Shown: piece after piece, positions 7,728 through 11,998 of the stretch
How positions within the stretch are numbered: the first letter of the stretch is position 1
How the letters are laid out: the number at the start of each line of letters is the position of its first letter
Source: a virus
Strand: one strand, 5' to 3'
Virus record (IMG/VR): IMGVR_UViG_3300042350_005441
Coordinates: 1 to 24,498 of that record
Length of the DNA stretch: 24,498 bases
Position numbers and translations under genes: made by a program
The notes under the pieces: model-generated
What the model saw: only the letters and a program-made list of their open reading frames with translations
Databases searched by the model: none
What the model was told of the DNA's origin: nothing

Positions 7728-8057
7728 GTCCTTATCTCCTATCGGGAATCGTTCGTTCATCCCGATAACTAAAGCATAGTCCAATGGCTAACCAATTCAA
7801 GCACCCAATCTATGACTCAATCCTATAAAAGCCTTATTCCATAAGGCTTAGATAATGACCGAAAAAAAATCCGCATAATGACCGAAAAAAAATCCGCATA
7901 ATGACCAATTTCGGACTAGACCCATTGACCCTCCCGAACACAGGTTCGCCCACCCCTCCTGAGAGATGCATAACACTCTTGGAATATATACTCAATTTTT
8001 CTAAAAAATGGCGTGGGCGGGATTCGGGCATGGGCGGGTTTAAAATGCGGGAGAATA
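7728..8057. other. non-coding region with palindrome, hairpin and A-tract repeats
   Basis: This stretch holds the TATCGGGA/TCCCGATA palindrome (7740-7767), a GCCTTAT/ATAAGGC hairpin (7831-7847) resembling the one at 3555-3571, and a 23-bp tandem repeat (7852-7906). The rest (7907-8057) contains G-rich words (GGGCGGG) and no credible reading frame. Confidence 0.55.
7852..7906. repeat. 23-bp tandem repeat with A8 tracts, 2.4 copies
   Basis: Two identical 23-bp units (7852-7874 and 7875-7897) are followed by the first nine bases of a third. Each unit starts ATAATGACCG and contains a run of eight A. A-tracts about two helical turns apart should bend the DNA. On the minus strand each unit gives a T8 run. 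Confidence 0.9.
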
Positions 8058-8190
8058 GAAAAGAGACCGCTTTGCGGGCGGTCTCTCTTTCTTCTCAGTG
8101 TGTTAACTATAACGGTCCTAAGATAGCGAAATTCGTTCTGCTCTGGTGATAGTGCAGATCACGATTGCCGCTTGACACTTTTAGGGTGCC
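8058..8190 (-). ncRNA. putative small RNA antisense to 23S rRNA (helix 69-71)
   Basis: On the minus strand, TGATATAAT (8205-8197) is a near-ideal extended -10, identical to the promoter of the nuclease gene at 9370. Transcription would start near 8190. A strong terminator lies at 8086-8062. The predicted RNA of about 130 nt has a 5' hairpin (8171-8178/8186-8193), a second small hairpin (8146-8150/8158-8162), then an open segment. Plus-strand positions 8104-8134 match the universally conserved 23S sequence TAACTATAACGGTCCTAAG... continuing to GCGAAATTC, with one difference (A at 8123 where rRNA has G). The RNA from the minus strand therefore pairs with all 31 rRNA positions, the odd one as G-U. 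No protein is encoded here. Function inferred only. Confidence 0.5.
8062..8086 (-). terminator. intrinsic terminator of FmdB gene and putative sRNA
   Basis: A 9-bp stem AGAGACCGC/GCGGTCTCT with a 7-nt loop is followed on the minus strand by TTTTCTATTC. The plus-strand side (CTTTCTTCT) is a weaker T-tract, so the minus direction is favoured. Confidence 0.75.
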
Positions 8191-8196
8191 AAGGAA

Positions 8197-8205
8197 ATTA
8201 TATCA
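8197..8205 (-). promoter_or_regulatory. extended -10 promoter for the putative sRNA
   Basis: TGATATAAT on the minus strand, located between the FmdB stop (8228) and the 23S-like segment. No clear -35 is present, as expected for an extended -10 promoter. Confidence 0.6.
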
Positions 8206-8227: not shown

Positions 8228-8404
8228 CTACTTTTTAGAGTTGCGGTAGAATCCACTGCCTTTGAGTTCTATCATCGGCGGGGAATAGATTTGTTTTAGC
8301 GTAGCGTTGCATTCGGGGCAAACATCTATCTTCCTATCTTCCAGAATGGATCTAAACTCTTCATGAGTGTGTCCATTAGAACAGCGATAGTTGTATTGTG
8401 GCAT
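8228..8404 (-). CDS. FmdB-family zinc-ribbon protein (58 aa)
   Basis: This short gene reads 'MPQYNYRCSNGHTHEEF' at the N-terminus, then 'CPECN' near residues 35-39, and ends 'GSGFYRNSKK'. The start M-P-x-Y-x-Y-x-C, a second CxxC about 25 residues later and a C-terminal G-x-GFY are the hallmarks of the FmdB putative regulatory (zinc ribbon) family, which is common in Actinobacteria and their phages. The first site has C with H/H in place of a second Cys. The biochemical role of the family is not established; zinc binding is expected. TATAAT (8416-8411) lies only 6 nt before the ATG, so the mRNA is probably leaderless. It is divergent from the ferredoxin gene. Confidence 0.85.
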   Translation of the reverse strand: MPQYNYRCSNGHTHEEFRSILEDRKIDVCPECNATLKQIYSPPMIELKGSGFYRNSKK

Positions 8405-9783: not shown

Positions 9784-9993
9784 TCACTCGTCAAAAGACT
9801 TGCGAAAACGATCTTCATGAAAGCGGTCTTGGAAAAGCCTATATCTCATAAGCTTTTGCTGACGATGCCTTTGGCTTAGTCCGATTTTTGCCACCCACCC
9901 CAATAAGATTATTCCAAGAATGTAGTATGCCATATCCGCTAAGAATAGCAGGCATAATTCAAATAACCACCATATCCAAAAAAAATAATTCAT
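9784..9993 (-). CDS. small membrane protein (69 aa)
   Basis: The ATG overlaps the stop of the upstream oxygenase gene (ATGA). Two hydrophobic segments (about residues 3-18 and 22-39, Trp/Phe-rich) form one or two membrane helices, followed by an Arg/His/Lys-rich cytoplasmic tail 'SQRHRQQKLMRYRLFQDRFHEDRFRK'-like in composition. It is immediately convergent with the nuclease gene (ends adjoin at 9783/9784). Function unknown; a holin-like arrangement cannot be excluded. Confidence 0.72.
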   Translation of the reverse strand: MNYFFWIWWLFELCLLFLADMAYYILGIILLGWVAKIGLSQRHRQQKLMRYRLFQDRFHEDRFRKSFDE

Positions 9994-10544
9994 CTGTATG
10001 TTTGGAAGTCAATATTGACAACCAACCTAAACGGAGAGCGAACGGGATTTGAAGCGGCATGGATGTTGCTACCGTCAAAGATGATAGCTCGCCCTGGCTT
10101 TGGATATACGGTGTCTTGGAGCTCGTGTGCTTCGTTAAAAAAGTAAGTTGGTCCATCTGAGTCATTTATGTAATATAGAAGAACTTTGTGGTCAACGGGC
10201 TCGCCATTGTCGTACTCTAAATCAACATGAGGAACTTGGGGCTCGTAGTGCATCATTGGAGGGTAAGGGGATGTAACATTTACCTTAGCCCGCAATAGGT
10301 TGATATTTCCAAACTTATCTGCTAGATTACCTACAAGCTTCTGAATTGCTGGAAGGTGAGTTGAGGCAATGTCTGATTCCGACTCATACAGGTGATGAGA
10401 CATCTGCATTGGTGCATGTGACCACTTACTATCTTCATGGTAAATATGGCTGCGGTAGAAGCGGTAAGGAACTTTAGGGTTAGTGAAGTAATCGTAAAGA
10501 TACGACTGTTCCTCTATAGATACATAGTTGTCAATAATAAACAT
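9990..10544 (-). CDS. 2-oxoglutarate/Fe(II)-dependent oxygenase 1 (184 aa)
   Basis: The start is ATG 10544, because the in-frame codons above it lie within the tRNA-Asn gene and because 'MFIIDNYVSIEEQ' aligns with 'MIDIVNNLIPIEQQ' of oxygenase 3. Iron ligands are H106 and D108 in 'PHVDLE' and H162 in 'NIHAASN'; R173 ('FRLVVNID') should bind 2-oxoglutarate. This is a double-stranded beta-helix hydroxylase of the prolyl-4-hydroxylase/phage 2OG type. Substrate unknown; candidates are a virion protein, DNA base or host factor. There is no room for a Shine-Dalgarno, because the A of the ATG is the last A of the tRNA's CCA. The downstream 69-aa gene is coupled by ATGA. Confidence 0.88.
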   Translation of the reverse strand: MFIIDNYVSIEEQSYLYDYFTNPKVPYRFYRSHIYHEDSKWSHAPMQMSHHLYESESDIASTHLPAIQKLVGNLADKFGNINLLRAKVNVTSPYPPMMHYEPQVPHVDLEYDNGEPVDHKVLLYYINDSDGPTYFFNEAHELQDTVYPKPGRAIIFDGSNIHAASNPVRSPFRLVVNIDFQTYR

Positions 10545-10619
10545 GGCTGGCGAGGTAGGGTTTGAACCTACGACCCAGGGATTAACAGTCCCTTGCTCTG
10601 CCAACTGAGCTACTCGCCA
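10544..10619 (-). tRNA. tRNA-Asn (anticodon GTT)
   Basis: Clear cloverleaf: acceptor TGGCGAG/CTCGCCA, D-arm GCTC/GAGC, anticodon stem AGGGA/TCCCT with loop CTGTTAA, T-arm GTAGG-TTCGAAC-CCTAC, discriminator G and an encoded CCA. The mature length is 76 nt. The 3' A (10544) is also the A of the downstream oxygenase ATG. Confidence 0.97.
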
Positions 10620-10628
10620 TTGTGCTAT

Positions 10629-10709
10629 TTACTTTAGCAGCAAAATAGCAATTGTAATTGCATGAAGCGTAAAATAAATTGCGTGTGTAATTTTATCCTG
10701 TTTTGACAT
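10629..10709 (-). CDS. 26-aa membrane microprotein between two tRNAs
   Basis: A perfect Shine-Dalgarno TAGGAGG stands 4 nt before the ATG. The product has a short charged start (MSKQDK) and then a hydrophobic helix (about residues 7-26, Ile/Leu/Ala-rich). The Shine-Dalgarno begins 1 nt after the base following the tRNA-Thr discriminator, so the gene is sandwiched between tRNA-Thr and tRNA-Asn and is probably released from a common transcript by tRNA processing. Unknown function. Confidence 0.65.
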   Translation of the reverse strand: MSKQDKITHAIYFTLHAITIAILLLK

Positions 10710-10721
10710 ATTTCCTCCTAG

Positions 10722-10793
10722 AGCCCCCTCTCGGACTTGAACCGAGGACCGCTTCATTACAAGTGAAGTGCTCTACCACTGAGCTAAAGGGGC
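10722..10793 (-). tRNA. tRNA-Thr (anticodon TGT)
   Basis: Cloverleaf: acceptor GCCCCTT/AGGGGGC (one G-T pair), D-arm GCTC/GAGC, anticodon stem CTTCA/TGAAG with loop CTTGTAA, T-arm CTCGG-TTCAAGT-CCGAG, discriminator T. CCA is not encoded; the bases after the discriminator are CTA. A TATAAT box lies at 10802-10797, and a TATTAT at 10816-10811, either of which could drive it. Confidence 0.95.
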
Positions 10794-10821
10794 GTTATTA
10801 TAGCAATATCATAATACAGCA

Positions 10822-10830
10822 TGGTATCAT
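10822..10830 (+). promoter_or_regulatory. extended -10 for leaderless oxygenase 2 mRNA
   Basis: TGGTATCAT ends 6 nt before ATG 10837. The 43-bp gap from the tRNA-Thr gene also carries the divergent tRNA promoter. Confidence 0.6.
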
Positions 10831-10836
10831 GTATGT

Positions 10837-11433
10837 ATGATTCAACACACAATTTTTAGAGATTGTATTTGGGAAGACACATTGGATGGTTTAGATTATT
10901 CTGCACTGGTAGATAGAACTCATCAAATTAAAAATAATGAAAATATAAATACACAAAAAAGCAATCGTGGTGGTTGGCAGAGCTCTGGGATATTAGAAGA
11001 TGAGTCATTTAAAGAATGCTTTTCTTTAATCCAAAAAAAAATTAATGATGTAATTAAAGATTATGGGTTCCATCAAAATGTATCAGCTGATCTGAGTTAT
11101 GCTTGGGCTAATATTAATAATAAAGGTGATTACAACACAGGGCATCTTCATGCTCATTCAATGATATCTGGTGTTCTGTATTTGAAAGCGCATGGCGCAG
11201 ATCAAGGATTAATTGGCTTTGACTATGCTAGTAGTTCTGAAATTAAAGGATATCACTATCCATACGAAGCTATCAATGATTTTAATGACCTTAACTCCAA
11301 TACATTCTTTGCAGAGCCAATTACTGGAAGACTACTTCTGTTTCCTGGTTGGCAGAAACACTTTGTTTTGCCAAATAAAACAGATGAAGAAAGAGTTTCA
11401 ATCTCTTTTAATTCAATGCTTAAAAATAATTAA
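10837..11433 (+). CDS. 2OG/Fe(II) oxygenase 2, phage TIGR02466-like (198 aa)
   Basis: The N-terminus has 'SNRGGWQSSGIL' and the middle 'ADLSYAWANINNKGDYNTGHLHAHSMISGVLYL'-type order (positions 84-116), then 'GRLLLFPGWQKHFVLPN' (164-180) and 'ERVSISFN' (185-192). H103/H105/H107 in the H-x-H-x-H cluster with H175 can supply iron ligands, and R186 the 2-oxoglutarate contact. This pattern (H-x-H, S-G-V-x-Y-L, H-x-V-x-P-N, R-x-S-I-S-F-N) is that of the phage family I know as TIGR02466. It is unlike oxygenases 1 and 3. Substrate unknown. It has its own leaderless start, and its 3' end overlaps the convergent oxygenase 3 gene by 14 bp. Confidence 0.85.
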   Translation: MIQHTIFRDCIWEDTLDGLDYSALVDRTHQIKNNENINTQKSNRGGWQSSGILEDESFKECFSLIQKKINDVIKDYGFHQNVSADLSYAWANINNKGDYNTGHLHAHSMISGVLYLKAHGADQGLIGFDYASSSEIKGYHYPYEAINDFNDLNSNTFFAEPITGRLLLFPGWQKHFVLPNKTDEERVSISFNSMLKNN

Positions 11434-11998
11434 TATTCAAAGTAATTCTTGAATCAGTCACTCCAGGGTGTGAGGATGAGTGATACTGATTTGCGTCAAA
11501 AATAATAGCATCGCCTTGACTTGCTTTATTAATATTTTGTGTATTTAAAAACACATCTTTATCATCTGTGTGTTTTTTATCGTACACAACTGTTGGACCA
11601 TCTGAGTCATGAACATAGTAAACAAGTGCTTTAATATTGTCATTTGTATAATCAATATGAGGTCTTTCCACAACGGGTTTATCAGATATTGATGTATGAA
11701 GTCTTAACGCAGCTCTGACCAAAGTAAATGGTCTATCTATGTGTAAAGCAATTGCGTTTAAAACAGGTATGAACAATTCAAAAAATTCAGATGTAGGTTT
11801 TGCATCGTAATACAAGATATGAGAAAACGCATAACTGGTTTGATAATTTAAATTTTTTATAATGAAATTTTTTTCATCAACACTTGGTGCCGATGCAATT
11901 CTAGAATTGTAACACCAAGGAAAATCCATTGACTCAGTAACATTTTTAATTTTTAACTGTTGCTCAATTGGTATTAAATTATTAACAATATCAATCAT
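11420..11998 (-). CDS. 2OG/Fe(II)-dependent oxygenase 3 (192 aa)
   Basis: Iron ligands are H114 and D116 ('RPHIDY') and H173 ('QYHSSSHPG'); R184 ('SRITLNIN') is the likely 2-oxoglutarate residue. The strings 'ALVYYVHDSDGPTVVYD' and 'GDAIIFDANQYHSS' align with 'VLLYYINDSDGPTYFFN' and 'GRAIIFDGSNIHAA' of oxygenase 1, so the two are paralogues. It lies 5 nt downstream of the FkbM-type methyltransferase gene, and both may modify the same target. Its 3' end overlaps oxygenase 2 in the convergent direction. Confidence 0.88.
   Translation of the reverse strand: MIDIVNNLIPIEQQLKIKNVTESMDFPWCYNSRIASAPSVDEKNFIIKNLNYQTSYAFSHILYYDAKPTSEFFELFIPVLNAIALHIDRPFTLVRAALRLHTSISDKPVVERPHIDYTNDNIKALVYYVHDSDGPTVVYDKKHTDDKDVFLNTQNINKASQGDAIIFDANQYHSSSHPGVTDSRITLNINYF

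Follow-up and report, generated by a model that had tools for sequence, protein, structure and literature searches.

A putative class of small phage RNAs antisense to the helix 69 region of 23S rRNA

Introduction

The stretch of viral DNA analysed here (IMG/VR record IMGVR_UViG_3300042350_005441, positions 1 to 24,498; 24,498 nucleotides in all, referred to as the window) contains a short segment that reads almost exactly as 23S rRNA on one strand and as its antisense on the other. The question that this locus raises is whether the segment is a site in the DNA, a signal acting in cis or part of an RNA directed at the ribosome. An earlier note on the same sequence had proposed a discrete minus-strand RNA complementary to 23S rRNA, and this proposal is followed here through the window, its close relatives and a wider set of phage genomes. 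Helix 69 (H69) of 23S rRNA, to which part of the segment corresponds, forms a bridge to the 30S subunit. Trans-acting base-pairing small RNAs (sRNAs) arise from their own promoter or from a 3' UTR, carry a conserved pairing stretch and end in an intrinsic terminator.

Match between the window and 23S rRNA

Plus-strand positions 8104-8134 of the window read TAACTATAACGGTCCTAAGATAGCGAAATTC and are identical to positions 1911-1941 of E. coli 23S rRNA, for which the sequence in stretch L100 served as the reference, except at A8123. Antisense RNA from the minus strand pairs with this region at 31 of 31 positions and with no gap, one of the pairs being G-U, so that both the near-identity and the complete pairing described in the earlier note, with G-U at the odd base, are borne out. 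The suggested BLAST comparison with bacterial 23S rRNA recovered the 31-mer from 5375 of 5426 E. coli genomes with a single mismatch, and the chance of so long a match between the window and 23S rRNA, about 3e-9 by our own estimate, is negligible. The 31-nt duplex with E. coli 23S rRNA has a predicted energy of -50.4 kcal/mol and that of the 16-nt core defined below -26.6 kcal/mol, against a best value of -20.7 and a median of -15.2 kcal/mol for 300 shuffled cores placed over 23S rRNA. The RNA would contain a conserved stretch complementary to a possible trans target (E. coli 23S 1911-1941), as base-pairing sRNAs do, and a covariance search for LSU rRNA gave no match in the window that would mark a 23S rRNA gene fragment. 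The fetched phage loci, 2.9 Mb in all, contain 185 matches of at least 17 nt to E. coli 16S or 23S rRNA on either strand, and every one falls at this 23S-antisense site.

The weaker similarity (CACGATTGCCG) that had been noted beyond the match recurs as CACGAxTG in four relatives (L025, L045, L093 and L096) but is absent from the other families seen, and we give it little weight as evidence.

Parts and strand of the window RNA

Read from its 5' end on the minus strand, the locus opens with an extended -10 element, TGATATAAT (8197-8205), from which an RNA start is predicted near 8190. A 5' hairpin, UUGGCAC-CCUAAAA-GUGUCAA (8172-8192), contains a G-U pair that exists on the minus strand only, and is followed by a second hairpin, UCUGC...GCAGA (8137-8158); both were identified by sequence and fold, and a scripted re-reading of the sequence places the two small hairpins of the earlier description at 8192-8172 and 8158-8137. 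The antisense stretch comprises GAAUUUCGCUA (8124-8134), antisense of 23S 1931-1941, which includes a second conserved element, UCGCUA; the odd base (8123), a U in the RNA that faces G1930 as a G-U pair; and the core, CUUAGGACCGUUAUAG (8107-8122), antisense of 23S 1914-1929 (the H69 loop, its 3' strand and the linker), which is kept on different scaffolds. A terminator hairpin, AGAGACCGCCCGCAAAGCGGUCUCU (8062-8086), followed by UUUCU, closes the RNA. Its neighbour just upstream, outside the RNA and on the same strand, is a 57-aa zinc-ribbon ORF (8234-8404; Pfam Zn_ribbon_8, E 1e-9).

Not all of these parts are recovered by standard scans. The putative minus-strand promoter is present as an extended -10 and its -10 is kept in relatives, but a consensus promoter scan of the locus found none on the minus strand, and for this reason the promoter rests on that conservation. 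Similarly, the terminator hairpin is present and kept in relatives, but the terminator scan flags 8062-8086 on the plus strand only, because the minus-strand fold draws part of the U run into the stem. The evidence for the strand therefore comes from G-U pairs, which are considered below for the class as a whole. In the window the minus strand folds far better than its shuffles (z -5.16), the plus strand less so (z -2.37). Together with the conservation of the -10, the antisense segment and the terminator hairpin in related phages, these features support, from sequence, the prediction of a discrete minus-strand small RNA of about 130 nt complementary to 23S rRNA, as first suggested.

Close relatives

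The exact 29-mer with the odd base occurs in 7 IMG/VR stretches, a pattern left open at that base in 11, and a pattern demanding a base other than G in 18, with A in every one of the 11 and of the 18; copies with G at this position and no following C, a combination that would rule out true rRNA, numbered zero. The A form of the match was absent from a collection of 84,980 species, a search with no positive control in which rRNA may have been masked. Related phages keep the -10, hairpins, the antisense stretch and the terminator, as the earlier note had asked to be checked: TATAAT or TATACT precedes the RNA in types L001-L012 and in L025, L045, L093, L094, L096 and L099, and the terminator hairpin shows paired changes (GACCGC/GCGGUC versus GACCAC/GUGGUC, the latter in L001 and L005). 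The 5' hairpin of the window is missing or replaced in L025, L045 and L094, and L025, L045, L093 and L096 have a different second hairpin with paired changes among themselves.

That A8123 might be invariant over the class proved wrong, since L013, L015 and L016 carry the rRNA-matching base and the L102 or L103 types another one; position 1930 is unconstrained over the class as a whole, and the tolerance of a G-U pair at A8123 that had been proposed agrees with the pairing to 23S rRNA. L013, L015 and L016 adjoin the same zinc-ribbon and ferredoxin genes and keep CCUUAGGACCGUUAUAG on a different RNA. In these three and in L332 and L333, an outer terminator stem can form between GACC of the core and GGUC at the end of the RNA. 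A further hairpin, CCAUCC-GCAA-GGAUG on the minus strand, is inserted directly 3' of the core in L009-L012 and contains AACCAUCC, which equals the 3' strand of actinomycete H69.

A broad class with a conserved core and a 3' hairpin

The 31-nt match includes a fixed core that a far larger class shares. IMG/VR was scanned twice with a pattern made of the 16-nt core and one flanking base that rules out true rRNA; the scans returned 86 and 111 stretches, 197 in total, and in 183 of these a hairpin lies within 60 nt 3' of the core with an energy at or below the 5% level of the controls. Inspection by eye suggests chance matches for three of the 14 stretches with no such hairpin (L114, L163 and L172) and for L134 among the 183; the remainder of the 14 are apparent members with a weaker or displaced hairpin, L269 not having been viewed singly. 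Many of the 197 are near-copies, and 103 distinct contexts are the fairer count. On this basis the downstream hairpin passes the 5% level in 93 contexts and the 1% level in 79, against 7 and 0 of the 103 for the upstream side. These figures are folding energies, which replaced a first terminator finder that had passed 613 of 2000 random stretches.

The commonest form (53 of 93 contexts) has the core after a few leading bases and before a hairpin of about 18 pairs, which in many cases carries a tetraloop. In 22 aligned members of the commonest family 98.7% of the stem cells are paired and 39 cells have changed on both sides; the covariation score was reached in 0 of 500 shuffles and the number of further pair types in 19 of 500. 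The 392 stem cells comprise 302 Watson-Crick pairs, 85 G-U, 1 A-C and 4 others, which identifies the antisense strand as the RNA, since the opposite strand would favour A-C over G-U. The antisense strand also folds lower in 88 of the 103 contexts (mean -27.9 versus -18.9 kcal/mol). Scaffolds vary across the class while the core hardly changes, and we take the window RNA, on this sequence evidence, to be one member of a broad class of phage RNAs.

No Rfam family accounts for it. Rfam 15 returned nothing but two tRNAs for the window, and at a relaxed threshold no family reached its gathering score in 14 loci, where two weak matches overlap the RNA (isrK in L095, 24.3 of 50 bits, E 0.26; STnc50 in L285, 27.1 of 55 bits, E 1.5). 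Members of the commonest family (for example L184, L194 and L277) have a common upstream block, TTRACACTTTCAGTATTT, some 40 nt ahead of the core. Its spacing seems greater than a plain sigma-70 promoter would have and may perhaps indicate a phage-specific one.

Constancy of the core and a second antisense element

Alignment columns 3-19, the core and the next G, are invariant in the 22 aligned members, although the core was the search key and its invariance there cannot prove constancy. A less key-bound set was drawn from 80 loci with a ferredoxin neighbour gene, from which 7 known window-type loci were left out; 50 of the remaining 73 contigs were used, mostly the longer ones, several of them already known to hold the core. 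These 50 contain 13 exact cores, none with one mismatch and 2 with two (a single sequence with no hairpin), and the reversed core pattern gave 1 match. A covariance model brought in one further family, represented by two contigs (L332 and L333), which keep GACCGUUAUAG and have lost CUUAG (1925-1929).

As a control, the viral collection was scanned for six altered cores with a non-A flank. Of the 22 stretches obtained, 3 (L285, L300 and L302) are RNA-like; they form one family with U opposite G1921, which keeps the pairing. Pairing is likewise kept by U opposite G1922 in the member from the huge phage LR756501, by G opposite U1915 in that from LR756504 and, outside the core, by G opposite U1940 in the L025 type. 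In both huge phages the core end, position 1929, lacks a pairing partner, and in RNAs of their type some of the core is itself folded into small hairpins. The observed core changes thus mostly keep pairing as G-U, the exceptions being position 1929 in the huge phages and the loss of CUUAG in L332 and L333.

The second element, UCGCUA, is antisense of 23S 1931-1936 and in the window lies directly before the core, where the two form a contiguous antisense. It recurs in many families, either adjoining the core on its upstream side or within the loop of the 3' hairpin. Outside the commonest family there are 48 distinct contexts, chance matches included; the loop placement (UUCGCUC in one case) is found in 13 of them, which are related families and not 13 independent events, and the form just upstream of the core in 17, where L150 looks like a chance match by eye. 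Two pieces of one 23S stretch occurring in differing order are hard to account for unless the RNA pairs at that place.

Carriers and possible hosts

The portal protein of the window is 45% identical to that of Streptomyces phage Wakanda. WhiB genes are absent from the window itself but occur in 5 of 19 close-relative records and in 15 of a wider set of 49, and 10 of these 15 (G019, G045, G046, G049, G050, G057, G063, G068, G076 and G096) contain the exact core. Such gene content points to Actinobacteria as the probable hosts of some members of the class, and whiB is on record in freshwater actinophages (PMC6802176). Other carriers are of a different kind. By its RecA-like protein L111 is nearest to huge phages and Prevotella Lak phages (60.7% to LR756500, 38.3% to Lak-A2), and members occur in the huge phages LR756501 (735 kb) and LR756504 (636 kb). 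The latter (L360, at 207952-207967) is diverged, with UUCGCU in the hairpin loop. The former has a modest downstream energy of -13.1 and what looks by eye like a terminator hairpin, whose loop contains UCGCUAC; LR756501 also has two further near-matches (-12.6 and -11.1) that by eye have no terminator hairpin. No match within two mismatches was present in Lak-A2, Wakanda, BillNye, StarPlatinum, Panino, ctYwJ313, LR756500, LR756502 or LR745206. A BLAST comparison of four RNA types with the phage collection yielded, besides members, 23S contamination and weak matches, among which one in a Klebsiella phage (E 0.9) is probably due to chance. Phage records with 23S rRNA-like sequence, such as PQ800148, KT319643 and MZ092003, are probably contaminated with host DNA. 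A photosystem gene, sought as a cyanophage marker, was found in 0 of 46 records, and a portal-protein search of genome contigs for a host gave no result.

HGC69a is an actinobacterial probe. The sampled actinomycete 23S rRNA (Arthrobacter, Pseudarthrobacter, Tsukamurella, Streptomyces, Actinomyces and Nonomuraea) reads CTATAACCATCC and not CTATAACGGTCC, that is CCAUCC versus CGGUCC, with two mismatches in the core. Of the 12 records with exact CTATAACCATCC, 10 are actinomycete and 2 are small ones labelled Pseudomonas and Acinetobacter. Against this type the 16-nt duplex falls to -16.7 from -26.6 kcal/mol and the 31-nt duplex to -40.5 from -50.4 kcal/mol. A scan of non-A-flank contexts for cores adapted to CCAUCC gave L282, L287 and L296, none RNA-like by eye, L287 having a downstream energy of -21.7. 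The earlier note had held that its reading would fail if the real host's 23S rRNA had no match: E. coli 23S rRNA matches in full, but the sampled actinomycete sequence, which bears on the relatives with WhiB, has the two mismatches. Either the hosts are actinobacteria whose 23S rRNA is of the CGGUCC type, or a weaker duplex is enough, or the RNA has a different target.

Possible action on the ribosome

We consider it slightly more probable than the reverse that the RNA of about 130 nt, as a member of the class, pairs with H69 and the linker of 23S rRNA and hinders 50S maturation or subunit joining. It would be transcribed from the minus strand during infection, and its core, antisense to the H69 loop, the H69 3' strand and the linker towards helix 70/71 (in the window on to 1941), would base-pair with 23S rRNA in free or maturing 50S subunits. 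This pairing would open or mask H69, so that late 50S maturation or joining with the 30S subunit would be hindered, presumably to the benefit of the phage. The coverage of the loop from C1914, the H69 3' strand and the linker to G1929 favours an action on free or maturing 50S subunits, and H69 may be unavailable in mature ribosomes. Among mutations in H69, A1912G, A1919G and 1917C cause strong inhibition of translation, whereas A1916G interferes with the formation of 50S or 70S particles (PMC1190176). For the class as a whole, the chances are about even that actinophage-like and huge phages (up to 735 kb) encode RNAs on varied scaffolds that pair with H69 and the adjacent linker of 23S rRNA so as to take over or tune host ribosomes, some members perhaps pairing via two separate pieces, the core and the hairpin loop.

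The evidence for rRNA pairing fits equally well with an RNA that pairs with H69/H70 and helps, either by protecting this rRNA against a modifying enzyme or RNase of the host (an abortive-infection toxin that cuts at this site would be one), or as an assembly chaperone for ribosomes during infection. MazF-type toxins cut H70, and phages need working ribosomes, which would make plain inhibition costly; but pairing over the H69 3' strand would unfold H69, which is hard to square with translation, and we consider a helping role fairly unlikely. The gene context raises another reading, that core and hairpin form a cis element (terminator-linked, a 3' UTR signal or a protein-binding motif) whose rRNA likeness is a trace of its origin. 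Judged by mechanically called ORFs, the nearest upstream ORF is on the same strand in 60 of 80 members and the nearest downstream one in 63 of 80, 30 of 80 have a same-strand ORF start no more than 60 nt downstream, some members begin about 8-14 nt after the end of a same-strand ORF, and 14 of 80 lie inside an ORF of at least 70 aa; in the L013 type, moreover, GGACC of the core can pair in the fold with the 3' arm of the terminator. Some members may be 3' UTR products or terminator elements. As an account of the class, a cis element, though a serious rival, is fairly unlikely, given that the distance to the next same-strand ORF varies (from an overlap to 491 nt), that UCGCUA recurs in the hairpin loop in the other order and that most core changes keep the pairing.

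The mismatch with sampled actinomycete 23S rRNA would be accounted for if the core paired with another host RNA or with a phage RNA. Yet 23S rRNA is indicated by the contiguous 31-nt match as well as by the second element, and 50 searched phage contigs contained no second core-complementary site within two mismatches on either strand, so that a different target appears very improbable. Hardly credible, finally, is a site acting at the DNA level, whether an attachment site, a homing-endonuclease target or a captured rRNA gene fragment, even though the match covers the I-CeuI region of 23S rRNA, as the earlier note pointed out. The strong hairpin stands on one side of the core only (79 versus 0 of 103 contexts at the 1% level), the stem shows the G-U bias of an RNA, the flanks differ while the core stays, the two antisense elements occur in two orders and the window gives no LSU rRNA match; the attachment or endonuclease site mentioned in the earlier note is unlikely on the same grounds. 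The idea of a sense-strand mimic of H70/H71 arose from a hairpin and CACGAxTG that follow the core in plus orientation, as in 23S rRNA; it was rejected, since the G-U pairs of the stem are on the minus strand only and most families have no hairpin plus CACGAxTG part.

Should the proposed pairing with H69 be real, phages would use RNA, and not only proteins, against the ribosome, with the subunit contact at helix 69 as the target, and the class would offer a natural example of antisense action on ribosomes. It would also lend itself to a simple test system, because the target of the window RNA is present in E. coli.

Relation to known systems

The class resembles bacterial and phage base-pairing sRNAs in being a short RNA, here predicted from sequence, with a conserved stretch for pairing and a putative terminator, but differs from them in that the conserved stretch matches rRNA; of the phage-linked sRNAs among the matches listed from the open-licence literature, one is said to act on an mRNA and none on rRNA. 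Small nucleolar RNAs and archaeal box RNAs guide rRNA modification together with bound proteins. The phage RNAs share with these a piece antisense to rRNA within a small RNA. Growth of E. coli is inhibited by a synthetic peptide nucleic acid directed against helix 69 of its 23S rRNA (Kulik et al. 2017, cited in PMC7038079); this is an artificial oligomer, in contrast to the natural phage RNA proposed here. No paper on a phage RNA of this type was among the matches listed for the open-licence PMC literature, as far as its searchable extracts go. The earlier note knew of no described phage RNA of this kind, and neither an Rfam family nor an open-licence PMC paper has come to light that would alter this. 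We rate the putative rRNA-directed base-pairing RNA as a new kind of phage RNA, with rRNA as its apparent target.

Other features of the window

Beside the RNA locus, at about 7853-7905, lies a near-tandem repeat of about 23 bases (gaccgaaaaaaaatccgcataat). Further along, the ORFs at 9990-10604, 10837-11433 and 11420-11998 appear by eye to encode proteins of the 2-oxoglutarate oxygenase type, and two tRNA genes (Asn and Thr) overlap or adjoin these oxygenase-like ORFs at 9990-11998.
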